A stretch of DNA of 64,000 nucleotides, taken from the NCBI GenBank assembly GCA_009377745.1, contig WHTK01000004.1:1-64000 (forward strand), given 5' to 3'. The DNA comes from Dehalococcoidia bacterium. Lineage in GTDB: Bacteria; Chloroflexota; Dehalococcoidia; DSTF01; WHTK01. Position numbers and translations under genes: made by a program. Below are positions 42,196 to 48,137 of this stretch, piece after piece (within the stretch, counting starts at the first letter, position 1; every line of letters begins with the position of its first letter). Under the pieces are notes generated by a model. It was not told the origin of the DNA. It ran no database searches and was given only the letters and a program-made list of their open reading frames with translations.

Positions 42196-43212
42196 CTAGA
42201 AGTCGCGCTCCAGGATGAAGGATGTGAGCTCGTCAAAGTGGACGCGCGACTCGAAGGGGATCTTGGTCTGCGATAGGGCTGCCATGGCGTGAGAGCGATA
42301 GTCTTCGGCCAGTCCCTGGGCAAAGTAGCGGCAGTTCCAGCGCTGGAGGACCCCCAGCACCACATCGACGTCTTCGTCTTCGATGGCGGGCGTGCTGTAG
42401 ACGTTGCGCAGCAGGTCCCTATCCGGGCCAACCACCTGCTCGAAGGCCTGGACGATGGGCAGCGACTTCTTCTTGCGGGCGATGTCGGCGCCGACGGGCT
42501 TGCCGGTCGCGGTGCCTTCACCCCAGATGCCGAGAATGTCATCGCGGATCTGGAAAGCGAGGCCGAGCTGGCGGCCGAAGACGCCGAAGCGCTCGATCTC
42601 ATCGGCATCGGCGCCGGCAACCAGGGCGCCGGCCTGAAGCGCGGCGCTGAGCAGGGCGGCCGTCTTGCGGCTGATCATCTCAATGTAGTCCGGCATGGTG
42701 ATGTCGGTGCGCAGCTCGTAGCTAAGGTCGAGGTGCTGGCCCTCGATCATCTCGCTACAAGCCTGGTTGAGGATGCGCCGCGCCCCCAGGACGCGGTCGG
42801 CGGCGAGTCCGCGGTCGAAGCTGCGATTGAGCGTCTGGTAGGCCAGCGTCCAGAGGGCAATGCCGGCCGCGATGGCCTGGTCGCGCCCGTACACGCTCCA
42901 GAGCGCGGGACGATGGTAGCGCAGCTCGTCGCCGTCTTCGATGTCGTCATGGATCAGGGAGAAGTTGTGGATCATCTCGATCGCGGCAGCGATCGGTAGG
43001 GCCTGCTCGATGTCGCCGCCCATCGCATCGCAAGCCAGGAGGCAGAGCGAGGGTCGTAGGCCTTTGCCGCCGAGATTGACGCCGCCATCGGCGGACCAGC
43101 CGAGCTGATAGCGCAGCATGTCGTTCATCGGGGAGCTTTCGGAGGTGAGGGAGCGGCCCACCTCCAGCTCAATCGCCTGGCGATAGCGGTAGAGGACTTC
43201 GGGGCCTTCCAC
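42196..43212 (-). CDS. Polyprenyl (isoprenyl) diphosphate synthase
   Basis: 338 residues. The first Asp-rich motif is FSLIHDDIEDGDELRYHRPA and the second QIRDDILGIWGEG. GGKGLRPSLCLLACDA and the GKPVGADIARKKKSLPIVQA segment are family signatures. Condenses isopentenyl diphosphate with allylic diphosphates to make farnesyl, geranylgeranyl or longer chains for quinones, carotenoids or glycan carriers. Chain length cannot be judged reliably. GTG start at 43212. Divergent from the phage-like cassette. Confidence 0.93.
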   Translation of the reverse strand: MEGPEVLYRYRQAIELEVGRSLTSESSPMNDMLRYQLGWSADGGVNLGGKGLRPSLCLLACDAMGGDIEQALPIAAAIEMIHNFSLIHDDIEDGDELRYHRPALWSVYGRDQAIAAGIALWTLAYQTLNRSFDRGLAADRVLGARRILNQACSEMIEGQHLDLSYELRTDITMPDYIEMISRKTAALLSAALQAGALVAGADADEIERFGVFGRQLGLAFQIRDDILGIWGEGTATGKPVGADIARKKKSLPIVQAFEQVVGPDRDLLRNVYSTPAIEDEDVDVVLGVLQRWNCRYFAQGLAEDYRSHAMAALSQTKIPFESRVHFDELTSFILERDF

Positions 43213-43286
43213 GTAAGCGATGGTACGCCGCGGGACGGTCCGTGTTCAAATCGCCACCCCCTGGCTGGGCAGTGTCATGGCGGGGA

Positions 43287-43315
43287 TTTATTGTACAGAA
43301 CATTCGTTCTATACT
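43287..43315 (+). promoter_or_regulatory. Promoter of the phage-like cassette
   Basis: TATACT at 43310-43315 with a weak -35 (TTTATT, 43287-43292) at 17-nt spacing; TTATTG at 16 nt is an alternative. The SOS-box palindrome fills the spacer and touches the -10, an ideal repressing position. Confidence 0.6.
43297..43310. promoter_or_regulatory. LexA (SOS) box in the cassette promoter
   Basis: AGAAC-ATTC-GTTCT is a perfect palindrome containing GAAC-N4-GTTC, the core of the Gram-positive-type LexA box. Symmetry extends imperfectly to about 18 bp. It sits between -35 and -10, so LexA binding would block transcription until DNA damage. Confidence 0.75.
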
Positions 43316-43354
43316 CCTGCATGTCGGACCGAGATTGCGAGAGCTGAGGTGGAT

Positions 43355-43666
43355 GTGCAGTGGTTGGATTTGTTGGTCTCGATAGAGGCGGGCGGCGATT
43401 TCATCCTGGCGTCGCTGAACTGCCTGTACTTCTTGAAGTATGCCGCGGCCACGCGGTCGCCGTCACGCAGGCTGGGGGCGGGCGCCCTGGCGTCTCTGCA
43501 GGGCAGCCTGGCGCTGGAGGCGCTGCTGTTCCTGTCGCAGGCGCCTTCGGGGGCACAGTCCTGGACGCGGGCCGTGGCGCTGGTCACGGTGCGCAGCGCG
43601 CTGCTGGCTTCGACGGCGCTGGTGAGCCTGCTGATCCGGCGTCACCTCTGGCTAACCCGGCGCTAG
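43355..43666 (+). CDS. Small membrane protein, first gene of the phage-like cassette
   Basis: About 103 residues from GTG 43355 (GAGG 6 nt upstream); the frame is open further 5' but crosses the promoter. Three hydrophobic segments (SIEAGGDFILASLNCLYFLK, GSLALEALLFLS and a final TALVSLLIRRHLW helix) suggest a polytopic membrane protein, possibly holin-like. Family not recognised. Confidence 0.6.
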   Translation: MQWLDLLVSIEAGGDFILASLNCLYFLKYAAATRSPSRRLGAGALASLQGSLALEALLFLSQAPSGAQSWTRAVALVTVRSALLASTALVSLLIRRHLWLTRR

Positions 43667-43676
43667 GCGGTGGCCG

Positions 43677-43847
43677 GTGAAGCCGTTTGCCGTCGCTGTG
43701 AAGCGGCAGCAATGGACGCTCGTCTCGCTCTACCTGTTGCTGGCAATCAGCGAGACGGCGGCGAAGCTGCCGCCGGAGTCGCTGACGGCGTTGATCGACC
43801 TGTTGGGCGGCGACGAGGCCCCGGCGAAGGGCGGGCAGGATGATTAG
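43677..43847 (+). CDS. Very small protein in the phage-like cassette
   Basis: 56 residues, GTG 43677 to TAG 43847. A basic N-terminus (VKPFAVAVKRQQ) precedes one hydrophobic helix (WTLVSLYLLLAISETAAKL) and an acidic tail. Supported by tight packing: it starts 11 nt after the previous stop and overlaps the next start by 8 nt. Single-span membrane peptide or helical accessory protein; function unknown. Confidence 0.5.
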   Translation: MKPFAVAVKRQQWTLVSLYLLLAISETAAKLPPESLTALIDLLGGDEAPAKGGQDD

Positions 43848-44223
43848 CGGTCCGTCCCTGCCCGATGAGGCCCTCATTGCCAAAGACAAACCCAGGAGCC
43901 ACGCCCGCCGTATTCGCCGGCCGGACCCGCGACGGTTCTACGGCGAGGCGTTGAGTAAAGCCGAACGCTTGGACCTGCCGGCGGCGCTAAAGATCGAGGG
44001 CATGGATGAGGAGATCGCCGTGCTGCGGCTAAGGCTGCGCACGGCGATCGAAGAGCGGCCGGACGACATCGAGCTGATGTTCAGGGGCATTGGCCTGATC
44101 GTCAGGACGGTGGCGGCGCGCTATCGCCTCTCCAAGCAGGCTGAACGCGACCTGGACTCTAGCCTGGCCGGCGTTGTCCGGACCCTGGGCGACCTGTTGC
44201 CGGGAGGGCTCATCGATGAGTGA
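43840..44223 (+). CDS. Small helical protein upstream of terminase (possible small-terminase role)
   Basis: 127 residues, ATG 43840. Basic N-terminal third (DKPRSHARRIRRPDPRRFYG), then helices IEGMDEEIAVLRLRLRTAIE and LMFRGIGLIVRTVAARYRLS. No membrane segment. Position, size and helical character fit a terminase small subunit or DNA-recognition factor, but I see no confident HTH. It overlaps its neighbours on both sides (8 nt each). Confidence 0.6.
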   Translation: MISGPSLPDEALIAKDKPRSHARRIRRPDPRRFYGEALSKAERLDLPAALKIEGMDEEIAVLRLRLRTAIEERPDDIELMFRGIGLIVRTVAARYRLSKQAERDLDSSLAGVVRTLGDLLPGGLIDE

Positions 44224-44431
44224 GAGGTCATCGGCGTTGGAGGCTGAGATCGGCCGCGTTGTGCAGCGCACCCGGCGGATAGGCGCGGAGGCGGCCTTTC
44301 GCGCCGCCATCGAGGAGCGGCTACGCGGCCTGGAATCAGAGATGAGCGAGGTGAAGTCGCGGCTGAACGGGCTGCTGTTCTTCATCGCCAGCACGGTCAT
44401 CGCGCAGGTCGTACTGAGGATCTGGGCGTGA
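44216..44431 (+). CDS. Coiled-coil plus membrane-anchor protein, XhlA-like
   Basis: 71 residues from ATG 44216 with GGGAGGG upstream. A charged amphipathic coil (AAIEERLRGLESEMSEVKSR) is followed by one C-terminal membrane helix (LLFFIASTVIAQVVLRIW). This is the layout of XhlA-type phage lysis accessory proteins. Overlaps terminase by 4 nt. The lysis role is inferred from layout only. Confidence 0.65.
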   Translation: MSERSSALEAEIGRVVQRTRRIGAEAAFRAAIEERLRGLESEMSEVKSRLNGLLFFIASTVIAQVVLRIWA

Positions 44432-45930
44432 TGCTTGCTAAAGGTGCGAGGGGCGCCTCCAACGCGGTGTCCACCGCCCAGATTGATCTGAAGGTGGCGT
44501 CCATCCCCAGCCGCCCGGTCCCCACATCACAGGGCCCGGCGTCCGGAAGGCCCGGGAAGACGGCAGCGGGTCTCAAATCGCCGTTGAGGCCTTATCAGCG
44601 CCAGGCGGCGCGGGCCATTGTCGATAGCGTGCTGCGGCGCAAGGGGCTGTCGTTCTCGGTGGAGATCGCGCGGCAGGGCGGCAAGAACGAGCTTTCGGCC
44701 CGCATCGAGCTGCTGCTGCTGGCGACGCATCTCCATCGAGACATCACCTCGATCAAGGCGGCGCCGACGCTGCGGCCCCAGGCGCTAATCAGCCTGCAAC
44801 GGCTCTGGGAGCGGGTGCAGGACGCCGGTCTCGACGCCTGGGCAACGAAGGAGAACGGCAACGCTGTCCGGCTGGGGCGCGCGCGGCAGCTCTTCCTCTC
44901 GGCGGAGCCCAACAGCAACGTCGTCGGCCACACCGCAGGTCTCCTTCTGGAGATCGATGAAGCCCAGGACGTGGACACGGACAAGTTCGACAAGGAATTC
45001 CGGCCGATGGCTGCCAGCACAGGCGCCACCACCGTCTTCTATGGCACGGCCTGGGACGACGCCAACCTGCTGGAGCGCGCCAAGCAAACGCACCTGGAGC
45101 AGGAACGCCGCGACGGCATCCGGCGTCACTTCGAGTACGACTGGCAGGTGGTGGCGGCGAGCAACCCGGATTACGGACGCTACGTCCTCGGCGAGCGCGA
45201 GCGGCTGGGCGCCGAGCACCCGCTATTCCTCACGCAGTACAGCCTGCGGACGCTGCCGGGGGCGGGCAGGCTGCTGGGCCCGGCTCAGCTATCGCTGCTG
45301 CGCGGGTCGCATGCGGCCCTGGCTGGGCCGGTGGCGGGCGAAACCTACGTGGCGGGGCTGGACCTCGCGGGCGAGGCGTCGCGGCCGGGGAGCGAGGCCG
45401 GGCACGACGCCACGGTGCTGACCATCGGCCGGGTGCGCGAGCCGGAAGCCGGTAGCCCCCTGGCCGAGAGCAGCGTCGAGGTGGTGCGGCACTACGCCTG
45501 GACCGGCGTGGCGCACACGGAGATATACGGCGCCCTCGTGTCGCTGCTGCGTGACACGTGGCGGGTGCAGCGTCTCTGCGTCGATGCGACCGGTATCGGT
45601 GAGCCGGTTGCCGCCTTCCTGACCAAGGGGCTGGGCGGCGGGCGTGTCGAGGCCGTGAAGCTCAGCTCCGAGACCAAGTCGAGTTTGGGCTTCGAGCTGC
45701 TGTCAGCCGTTAACGGCGGCCGGCTAAGGCTTTACGAGGCCGTGTCAGCCGAGTGCTGGCGGCAGCTGGAGCGCTGTCGCGCCGTCTACCGGCCGAACCG
45801 GACGCTGAGCTACTTCGTCGAGGCGCGCGACGGCCACGACGACTACGTGATCAGCCTGGCGCTGGCGTGGGCCGCCGCGTCGGGAGCGGGGCCGCGACGC
45901 GCCCGCGGCCGGAGCGATGGATTGATCTGA
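44428..45930 (+). CDS. Phage terminase large subunit (DNA-packaging ATPase/nuclease)
   Basis: 500 residues. ATPase domain: SPLRPYQRQAARAIVDSVLR, the Walker-A-like VEIARQGGKNELSARIE, Walker B LLLEIDEAQDV (about residues 170-180) and the coupling-motif region TTVFYGTAWDD. RNase-H-like nuclease domain: first Asp in YVAGLDLAGE, second in CVDATGIGEP and third in DGHDDYVISLALAWA. All catalytic positions look present, so the protein is probably functional. GTG 44428 (GAGGA 7 nt upstream) or ATG 44431 can start it. Residues about 19-36 are encoded by a repeat (44481-44533) that recurs at the gene's end. Confidence 0.9.
   Translation: MMLAKGARGASNAVSTAQIDLKVASIPSRPVPTSQGPASGRPGKTAAGLKSPLRPYQRQAARAIVDSVLRRKGLSFSVEIARQGGKNELSARIELLLLATHLHRDITSIKAAPTLRPQALISLQRLWERVQDAGLDAWATKENGNAVRLGRARQLFLSAEPNSNVVGHTAGLLLEIDEAQDVDTDKFDKEFRPMAASTGATTVFYGTAWDDANLLERAKQTHLEQERRDGIRRHFEYDWQVVAASNPDYGRYVLGERERLGAEHPLFLTQYSLRTLPGAGRLLGPAQLSLLRGSHAALAGPVAGETYVAGLDLAGEASRPGSEAGHDATVLTIGRVREPEAGSPLAESSVEVVRHYAWTGVAHTEIYGALVSLLRDTWRVQRLCVDATGIGEPVAAFLTKGLGGGRVEAVKLSSETKSSLGFELLSAVNGGRLRLYEAVSAECWRQLERCRAVYRPNRTLSYFVEARDGHDDYVISLALAWAAASGAGPRRARGRSDGLI
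44481..44533 (+). repeat. Cassette repeat, copy 1 (inside the terminase 5' end)
   Basis: About 53 nt beginning GATTGATCTGAAGGTGGCGT and ending CCCCACATCACAGG. Aligns well with copy 2 at 45920-45973 and with the inverted copy at 46362-46411. Here it is translated as part of the terminase N-terminus. Confidence 0.7.
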
Positions 45931-45973
45931 AGGGTGGTGTCCACCCCATGCCCTGCAACCCCCACACCACAGG
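45920..45973 (+). repeat. Cassette repeat, copy 2 (over the terminase stop)
   Basis: 54 nt from GATTGATCTGAAGGGTGGTG to CCCCCACACCACAGG. The terminase TGA (45928-45930) lies inside it. GTGGTGT and ACACCAC can form a 7-bp stem, and GGGTGG-TGT-CCACCC a competing smaller hairpin. Confidence 0.75.
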
Positions 45974-46008
45974 ATGGGCAGTGACCCTCAACGAGAGGAG
46001 GAAATGAC

Positions 46009-46338
46009 ATGGTAGCCCTACAAAACAGACCGCCTTCCTATTTGCGGCAACCCGTCATCGGAGACGAGGAGCTGCCGCGGCCGGCCCGGCGAGACGCGCT
46101 GCCGGAGCACACCCATTACGCCGATACCGGCTGTGACCTGCACCCGAGCTGCCTGACTTGCCCGCTGGTGCGCTGCCGCTACGACGAGCCCGGTGGCGCC
46201 CGCCGCCTCCTGAGTGAGGACCGCGACCGGACGATGCTGGAGCTACAGCGATCGCACGTGCCGATCAACTCGATTGCGGCCCGGTTTGGCATCTCACGCC
46301 GCACCGTCTTCCGGGTGCTGGCGCGGCACCGAAGTTAG
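46009..46338 (+). CDS. Cys-cluster helix-turn-helix protein of the phage-like cassette
   Basis: 109 residues; AGGAGG upstream of ATG 46009. The middle carries TGCDLHPSCLTCPLVRCRYD, four cysteines that could bind zinc or an Fe-S cluster. The C-terminus is a helix-turn-helix (SHVPINSIAARFGISRRTVF, then RVLARHR). Probably a DNA-binding regulator or recognition factor. It lies between terminase and portal, where phages often encode small DNA-binding proteins. Confidence 0.75.
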   Translation: MVALQNRPPSYLRQPVIGDEELPRPARRDALPEHTHYADTGCDLHPSCLTCPLVRCRYDEPGGARRLLSEDRDRTMLELQRSHVPINSIAARFGISRRTVFRVLARHRS

Positions 46339-46361
46339 GCAGGCCGATTACGAGTAGGGTT

Positions 46362-46411
46362 CCTGTGGTGTGGGTGTGGGGACGGCTGGAGGGAGGACAC
46401 CACTTTCAGAT
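46362..46411 (-). repeat. Cassette repeat, copy 3 (inverted, before the portal gene)
   Basis: The reverse complement runs ATCTGAAAGTGGTGTCC through CCCACACCACAGG, matching copies 1 and 2. It ends 12 nt before the portal start and brings GTGGTGT/ACACCAC arms able to form a hairpin. Confidence 0.7.
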
Positions 46412-46423
46412 GAGGAGGAGCAG

Positions 46424-47803
46424 ATGACCAGTCCGCCCGCTACCGCCAACCAGAGCGTCATAGAGCAGCTGACGCGCCTCGATAGCCAGCGTCTGCGCGC
46501 CTACCGCGAGAACCTGGCGTTCTATCGCGGGCAGCAATGGCCGGCCCAGGCGCGCCGCCGGGAGCGGCGGCTGGTCTTCAACTACGCCAGGGCGATGATC
46601 GACAAGACAGCGTCTTACCTGACGGCGGGCATGAGCTGCGTCGTGGATGAGGAAGACGGGACGCAAGAAGCGCGGGAGCGGGCTCGGCAGGCCGAGAAGG
46701 CCCTGCGCCAGGTCTATGAGGCCAACAACCTGGCCCAGCTCGACTTCGATGCCGAGATCGACGCCTCGATCCTGGGCGATGGCGCCTTCAAGGTGACCTG
46801 GGACCCGGACGAACGCCGGATACGAGTCTCTTCGCCGGACGTGCAGGGGCTATTCGCCTGGTGGCTGGGCGACGACGTGACGCGGCTCTGGCGGGTCGCC
46901 AGCCGCTACTACCTCTCGGACGAGGAGGCCACGCTGCTCTACGGCGAGGCGGTCCCGCGGCGGACGCAGCGTCATGGCGGTCGCGCCGGCGTCCCGGTGG
47001 CCAAGCAGCATAGCGTGGTCGAGGTCTGGACGCGGGAAGAGTTCGAGCTCTGGTTTGATGGCGGCCTACTTGATGCCAAGCCGAACCCCTACGGCTTCAT
47101 CCCGTTCGTGATCTTCGCCAACCTGCGCGAGCCGCATCAGTTCTGGGGCGTCAGCGATATCGAGGCCGTGCGCGAGCCGGTGCGGGAGCTGAACCGGGCG
47201 CTCTCGCAGCTCTCGATGATCCTGGAGCTGTCCGGCAATCCCGTCGCGGTTCTGGAGAACGTGACGGAGGCGCAGGACATCGCCGTGGCGCCGGGCGCGG
47301 TCTGGGAGCTACCGGAGCGGGCGCGCGCCTACTTGCTGGACCTGCTGCAGGGTGGCGGCGTGGGCCTGCACGGCGACTACGTGCAGATGATCTACCGGAC
47401 GCTGCATGACCTGGGCGAGTCGCCGCGTACCGCGTTTGGCGAGAGCCGCGGGCTGTCCGGAGTTGCGCTCAACATCGAGCTGGACCCGCTACTGAAGAAG
47501 ATCCAGCGCAAGCGCCTGCTGCGCGACGCGGCGATCAGGCGCCGCAACGAGCTGGTCCTGCGGCTACTGGAGCAGTACACCGGCGTGAGCTACGCGCCTT
47601 ACCGCTCGCGCGTAGTCTGGGGGCCGCTGTTGCCGCCGGACCGCAGCCGGCTGGTCGGCGATGAGACGCGGCTGGTGCAGGCCGGCATCCACTCGCGTCG
47701 CCGGGCTGCCAACGAGCTGGGCGTGGCCGACCCGGAGACCGAGTTTGAGCGCTGGCGCGAGGAGCGGGCGCTGCTGGTTGCTGAGGAGGAAGACGATGCT
47801 TGA
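46424..47803 (+). CDS. Phage portal protein (SPP1 gp6-like)
   Basis: 459 residues from ATG 46424 with AGGAGG upstream. YRENLAFYRGQQWPAQARRR and LVFNYARAMIDKTASYLTAG near the N-terminus, then GDGAFKVTWDPDERRIRVSS and a PNPYGFIPFVIFANLREPHQ-type stem region, and a long C-terminal helical part (LLKKIQRKRLLRDAAIRRRN). These are typical of dodecameric portals that seat the terminase on a procapsid. No capsid gene follows. Overlaps the next gene by 8 nt. Confidence 0.87.
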   Translation: MTSPPATANQSVIEQLTRLDSQRLRAYRENLAFYRGQQWPAQARRRERRLVFNYARAMIDKTASYLTAGMSCVVDEEDGTQEARERARQAEKALRQVYEANNLAQLDFDAEIDASILGDGAFKVTWDPDERRIRVSSPDVQGLFAWWLGDDVTRLWRVASRYYLSDEEATLLYGEAVPRRTQRHGGRAGVPVAKQHSVVEVWTREEFELWFDGGLLDAKPNPYGFIPFVIFANLREPHQFWGVSDIEAVREPVRELNRALSQLSMILELSGNPVAVLENVTEAQDIAVAPGAVWELPERARAYLLDLLQGGGVGLHGDYVQMIYRTLHDLGESPRTAFGESRGLSGVALNIELDPLLKKIQRKRLLRDAAIRRRNELVLRLLEQYTGVSYAPYRSRVVWGPLLPPDRSRLVGDETRLVQAGIHSRRRAANELGVADPETEFERWREERALLVAEEEDDA

Positions 47804-48137
47804 TGACACCGCGACGGCGATCGTATTGCTGCTGTTCCTCTCGGCGGCGGTAGAGCGCGGCGTGGAGGTCGTGCTCTCCGCGCTGGATGGCTGGCAGGCC
47901 CCGGCGCAGCGCCGCCTCCTGGCCGTCGGGCTCTCGGCCGCCTTGAGTGCGGCGATTGCTTTCGGATTGGAGCTCGACCTGATCGGTCCGCTGCTGAGCG
48001 AGGAAGCGCTGACTCTGACTCAGGCCCGAGCCGCCACGGCAATTGCGCTGGCCGGCGGCAGCGGCCCGGCCCACGAGCTGATCCGGCTGATCGAAGAGGC
48101 GAAGGCGCGCTTGAAGGCCGGATCGTCAGGAGCTTAG
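47796..48137 (+). CDS. Small membrane protein closing the cassette (holin-like candidate)
   Basis: 113 residues from ATG 47796, GAGGAGG upstream. Two membrane segments (AIVLLLFLSAAVERGVEVVL and LLAVGLSAALSAAIAFGLEL), then a charged C-terminal helix (ELIRLIEEAKARLKAG). Topology fits a class II holin or another phage membrane protein. The stop overlaps the convergent acyl-CoA synthetase stop by 4 nt, leaving no room for an attachment site at this end. Confidence 0.65.
   Translation: MLDDTATAIVLLLFLSAAVERGVEVVLSALDGWQAPAQRRLLAVGLSAALSAAIAFGLELDLIGPLLSEEALTLTQARAATAIALAGGSGPAHELIRLIEEAKARLKAGSSGA

Follow-up and report, generated by a model that had tools for sequence, protein, structure and literature searches.

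The window analysed here is a stretch of 64,000 nucleotides (positions 1-64000 of contig C60) from a genome of 3.53 Mb in 73 contigs. It contains a tight operon of eight genes (43349-48137), including those for a terminase, an HTH protein and a portal, which lies 3′ of a LexA-like palindrome. The promoter elements and genes of this cassette are:

43272-43277, plus strand: GTGTCA, a copy of the conserved gTG(A/C)CA, which in relatives lies about 9-12 bp 5′ of the −35
43287-43292, plus strand: weak −35 register TTTATT with a 17-bp spacer; relatives have a good TTGAC
43297-43310, no strand: predicted LexA-type operator AGAACATTCGTTCT, a palindrome conserved in cassette promoters across the class
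43310-43315, plus strand: −10 element TATACT, abutting the operator core; relatives have TATNNT in the same register
43349-43666, plus strand: small membrane protein, the first cassette gene, with a GTG start; family found in 19/80 genome loci
43677-43847, plus strand: small ORF; family found in 9 loci
43840-44223, plus strand: 127-aa protein occupying the small-terminase position; in some relatives it begins with RGAPKGNQNARKHGFY
44216-44431, plus strand: small conserved protein of 71 aa
44428-45930, plus strand: terminase large subunit (TerL; Pfam PF17289, PHROG 5909) with ATPase and nuclease motifs
46009-46338, plus strand: protein with a Cys cluster and HTH_7, which marks the integrase-less architecture
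46370-47803, plus strand: portal protein, SPP1 gp6-like (PHROG 64)
47796-48137, plus strand: small, lineage-specific membrane protein closing the operon; not found in relatives

The TerL match to PF17289 (E 0.001) was below the cut-off of that family. By reading, we located a Walker A-like RQGGKN, a Walker B LLLEIDEAQ and acidic nuclease residues in GLDLAGE, VDATG and HDDYVISLALA, and TerL homologs were present in most cassette loci. The 127-aa protein is a candidate small terminase solely by its gene position and N-terminal motif, and a fold search with it gave no significant match. Searches against PDB sequences returned no match for the capsid or TerL and only a partial one for the portal. 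No lysis gene was recognised. The four-Cys cluster of the HTH protein is nearly invariant, and this protein is a candidate regulator or packaging protein.

No capsid gene was found beside the TerL and portal genes on C60. The genome has a capsid gene of its own on contig C26, where a coiled-coil scaffold-like ORF, an SU10-type adaptor (PF24175) and, near ruvB, a tail-like ORF were also found; about 50 bp 5′ of the scaffold-capsid genes is ATTGGAACAAAGTTTCTAGA, a box with one mismatch. Relatives can have the portal, scaffold, capsid, adaptor and tail-like genes side by side, and in the closed genome G075 the capsid gene is 112 kb from the portal gene. The capsid ORF of the window's genome (L089:1954-3120, G000:C26) is missing its usual stop and continues for about 90 aa into RHS-like sequence. 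This read-through may reflect decay, fusion or misassembly, and the particle genes here may therefore be decaying or misassembled.

An earlier note on this DNA had described a perfect LexA-type operator between a −35-like element and TATACT, with no comparable box noticed before other genes in the window. Our analysis found AGAACATTCGTTCT at 43297-43310, with the core GAAC-ATTC-GTTC at 43298-43309, about 40 bp from the first cassette gene. It is the only perfect GAAC-N4-GTTC within the 64 kb, and the one-mismatch matches in the window were at chance level (19 found, 17.7 expected). TATACT was rated a good −10 and adjoins the box directly. The −35-like element does not hold if TTGTAC (43292-43297) was meant, as only 12 bp separate it from the −10; with a 17-bp spacer the −35 falls on TTTATT. 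At 65.7% GC, base composition predicts 0.64 occurrences of the 8-position core per 64 kb and 0.019 of the 10-position AGAAC-N4-GTTCT. Genome-wide, the 8-base core was found 24 times, with about 36 expected by chance. The core alone is therefore unremarkable, whereas the extended form inside a promoter is remarkable.

What makes the operator convincing is the comparative evidence, not the rarity of its core. Across 39 cassette loci, the 74 kb lying 5′ of cassette genes contained 32 boxes that match at least 11 of 12 positions. The other 513 kb contained 12, of which several precede capsid genes; permuted motifs averaged 0.05 and 0.25 in the two compartments, respectively. In a held-out set of 59 genome loci without overlap with the first set, 52 carried TAGAAC-N4-GTTCTA with at most one mismatch in 12. 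These loci had 63 sites, compared with a mean of 0.8 (maximum 4) for 30 permuted palindromes, and 60 of the 63 abutted a −10 (TANNNT). The aligned promoters of relatives read TTGAC-17 bp-TATTCT; the palindrome occupies the spacer, and gTGaCA stands further 5′. This logo is descriptive only, because the aligned sites were picked from the first box scan. The gTG(A/C)CA element is present in most boxed cassette promoters and is a candidate activator site or second promoter element. Scattered operons for TerL, portal and capsid often carry one copy of the box apiece, as do both separated operons in G096, and a box precedes 14 of 29 capsid operons (2.3% in shuffled windows).

L318-L366, for the most part Dehalococcoidales loci, usually have the box TAGAACATATGTGCTA, with a constant one-base departure from the palindrome. 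This form, GAAC-N4-GTGC, creates an extended −10 (TGCTATNNT), so that the change of T to G provides a plausible promoter reason for the imperfect operator of Dehalococcoidales.

Both lexA and recA are present in the genome. The native LexA is full length, and its AG cleavage site and Ser and Lys motifs were located. The lexA promoter carries AGAACAGGCGTTTCG, which has one core mismatch and spacing identical to GAAC-N4-GTTC. We counted every 4-mer dyad upstream of lexA, which makes the count unbiased, in 31 and then 51 Dehalococcoidia genomes. GAAC-N4-GTTC led by a wide margin, being present in 20 of the 31 (next dyad, 5) and in 35 of the 51 (next dyad, 7). This supports the link to DNA damage proposed in the earlier note, and of the native comparison it had suggested, the lexA part stands with the same dyad. 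The own recA gene has GGAACATTTTTTC upstream, also with one core mismatch, and recA promoters showed no strong class-wide motif. The boxes are mostly degenerate or missing in relatives, and the recA part of the comparison is therefore weak.

A genome scan for TAGAAC-N4-GTTCTA with at most one mismatch, which the earlier note had also called for, found five sites, and a reversed control found none. They belong to the cassette, an ATP-dependent ligase, a serine recombinase, a VTT/DedA-type gene and a Y-family polymerase, the last preceded by the GTGC form. In the same genome AAGAACGCACGTTCG lies upstream of a RecJ-like gene, and in G050 the cassette-type operator precedes a RadA-like gene. It is plausible that the boxes before these repair-type and other genes form an SOS regulon. 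The site before the serine recombinase gene (L368, G000:C4:25684) is the operator-like TAGAACACCTGGTCTATAAT, about 33 bp upstream, and another mobile element may therefore be under SOS control. A radical SAM gene (L096, G000:C66:29096) has TAAGAACAACTGTTCTTA at its start. The cassette operator matches the native dyad and overlaps the promoter in a genome that encodes RecA and a predicted self-cleaving LexA, and we consider it very probable that the box is a LexA operator.

Among the alternatives, an ordinary SOS-inducible prophage, or the remnant of one, survives best but is unlikely. LexA-controlled prophages are well known, every recognisable gene here is phage-derived, and related contiguous modules with integrase and RepO occur in IMG/VR. 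Two architectures were found there: HTH-type contigs, 34 of 36 with the box, and contiguous TerL-portal contigs without the HTH gene, none of 13 with it. Integrase or RepO was found in 0 of 69 genomic and 1 of 51 IMG/VR box-type loci (1/120 together), against 10 of 14 box-less phage-type contigs; these counts are lower bounds, with few query sequences, differing locus sizes and many short contigs. The combination that marks a temperate prophage, integrase and replication genes beside the structural genes, was thus not seen in box-type loci. The dispersal of the operons, each with a box, and the absence of the box from phage-type relatives also argue against a prophage, as do class-wide occurrence, purifying selection and housekeeping flanks where checked. 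The portal gene was present in 59 of 99 relatives and the capsid gene in 52 of 99, the window's genome included, and portal relatives in named genome collections were almost all MAGs of Dehalococcoidia and other Chloroflexota. By dN/dS in a same-genus pair (about 0.11 for the portal and about 0.05 for the capsid), both genes are under strong purifying selection in such pairs. In the two relatives checked, housekeeping genes flank the locus (prolyl-tRNA synthetase, GcpE, MoaC, MoaA-like and Ham1). Like SOS-inducible temperate prophages, the cassette has phage structural genes and would be expected to respond to damage; it differs in that no integrase or replication genes were found and in that the LexA-type operator sits directly on structural operons.

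The portal tree speaks in favour of a prophage. Two separate clades of box-type and phage-type portals were considered and rejected, since the types interleave, in Dehalococcoidales; this indicates exchange or repeated domestication and no single clean event. Absence of the module from viral collections was likewise dropped: a scan with a single portal sequence found none, and a scan with an alignment found 349 viral contigs. Taken together, the cassette is quite probably domesticated rather than an ordinary prophage.

A dedicated cassette regulator in place of LexA, for example the adjacent Cys/HTH protein, could also bind the box, which we regard as rather improbable. The HTH gene adjoins the portal gene and tracks the box in the IMG/VR contigs counted above, gTGaCA is an additional conserved element upstream of the box, and Dehalococcoidales boxes are mostly GAAC-N4-GTGC, in contrast to GAAC-N4-GTTC at lexA in G030, G083 and G097. 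However, the core and spacing of the box are identical to those of the native lexA dyad, the Y-family polymerase of the window's own genome likewise has the GTGC form in front of it, and the extended −10 (TGCTATNNT) can explain the GTGC change. The consensus core GAACATATGTTC is, moreover, the core reported for the Firmicutes LexA footprint TACGAACATATGTTCGTA (PMC2248561). The divergent polyprenyl synthetase gene (42196-43212, minus strand) was rejected as the target of the box and is a most improbable one: the palindrome is 85 bp upstream of it, but only one relative (G001) keeps the gene as a neighbour, whereas the box remains beside the cassette, and the −10 abutting the box faces the cassette. 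A chance match is scarcely credible, for although the core alone would be expected at the rate given above, conservation of the box in fixed register with the −10 in the held-out loci rejects a chance origin at class level.

We therefore return to LexA control of a domesticated cassette. What was observed is an operator that is conserved, in phase with the promoter and matched to the native lexA dyad, together with a conserved, integrase-less cassette; from these we infer LexA binding and induction and, further on, particle formation, DNA content and any transfer. A LexA dimer lying over the spacer and the −10 edge would keep the operon off. Once DNA is damaged, LexA would cleave itself, prompted by RecA-ssDNA, and transcription of the operon would follow. 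The operon would act in concert with the separate capsid-adaptor-tail locus on C26, and the product would be small phage-like particles into which the terminase would load DNA, most likely that of the host, in the manner of a gene transfer agent (GTA). As a whole, the cassette is probably a LexA-repressed, domesticated phage DNA-packaging operon that would make phage-like particles. Against this reading stand the weak −35 of the window's own promoter, the single mismatch in each of its own lexA and recA boxes with the poor recA boxes class-wide, the capsid ORF running into RHS-like sequence, the interleaved portals, the about 40% of sampled relatives without a portal gene and the absence of any recognised lysis gene.

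The operator resembles those of Gram-positive-type LexA in its core GAACATATGTTC, spacing and position in the core promoter, and GAAC-N4-GTTC is the LexA operator of B. subtilis (PMC4234289). It differs in its flanks, TA..TA instead of TACG..CGTA, and in its target, a phage-derived structural operon. Damage control of GTAs has precedents: mitomycin C induces BhGTA (VSH-1) (PMC9662315), LexA sites are predicted at the GTA cluster of D. shibae, and in R. capsulatus LexA acts via cckA (PMC6473078). As in RcGTA, BaGTA and BhGTA (PMC9662315), the structural genes of the cassette are phage-derived, integrase-less, dispersed over loci and perhaps broadly vertical. In contrast to these, the cassette derives from another phage ancestor (SPP1-like portal, SU10-like adaptor) in another phylum, its capsid is about 42% identical to those of Pseudomonas phages, no tail-tube genes were recognised, and its operator lies in the core promoter of several operons.

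Of the features that define GTAs in PMC9662315, we found portal, TerL, capsid and adaptor families derived from caudoviricetes, endogenised over several loci (TerL and portal on C60, capsid on C26; also split in G075). Portal and recA distances correlate (Mantel r 0.555, 0 of 5000 permutations), yet phage-type portals interleave on the tree, and vertical inheritance of the module with the host is partly supported. In the literature surveyed, which covered few subscription papers, a single co-mention linked GTAs with Dehalococcoidia and no Chloroflexota GTA was described, so that within this scope the candidate is provisionally new for the phylum. We tentatively suggest, as a possibility somewhat short of even, a Chloroflexota GTA with several chromosomal operons, each switched by LexA, through which Dehalococcoidia would package and share host DNA after damage. 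If true, this would extend GTAs to Chloroflexota, and it would be a clean case of damage directly switching particle production through one operator repeated on dispersed operons. The difference between boxed, integrase-less loci and their box-less, integrase-bearing phage relatives would then provide a testable sequence mark of domestication.
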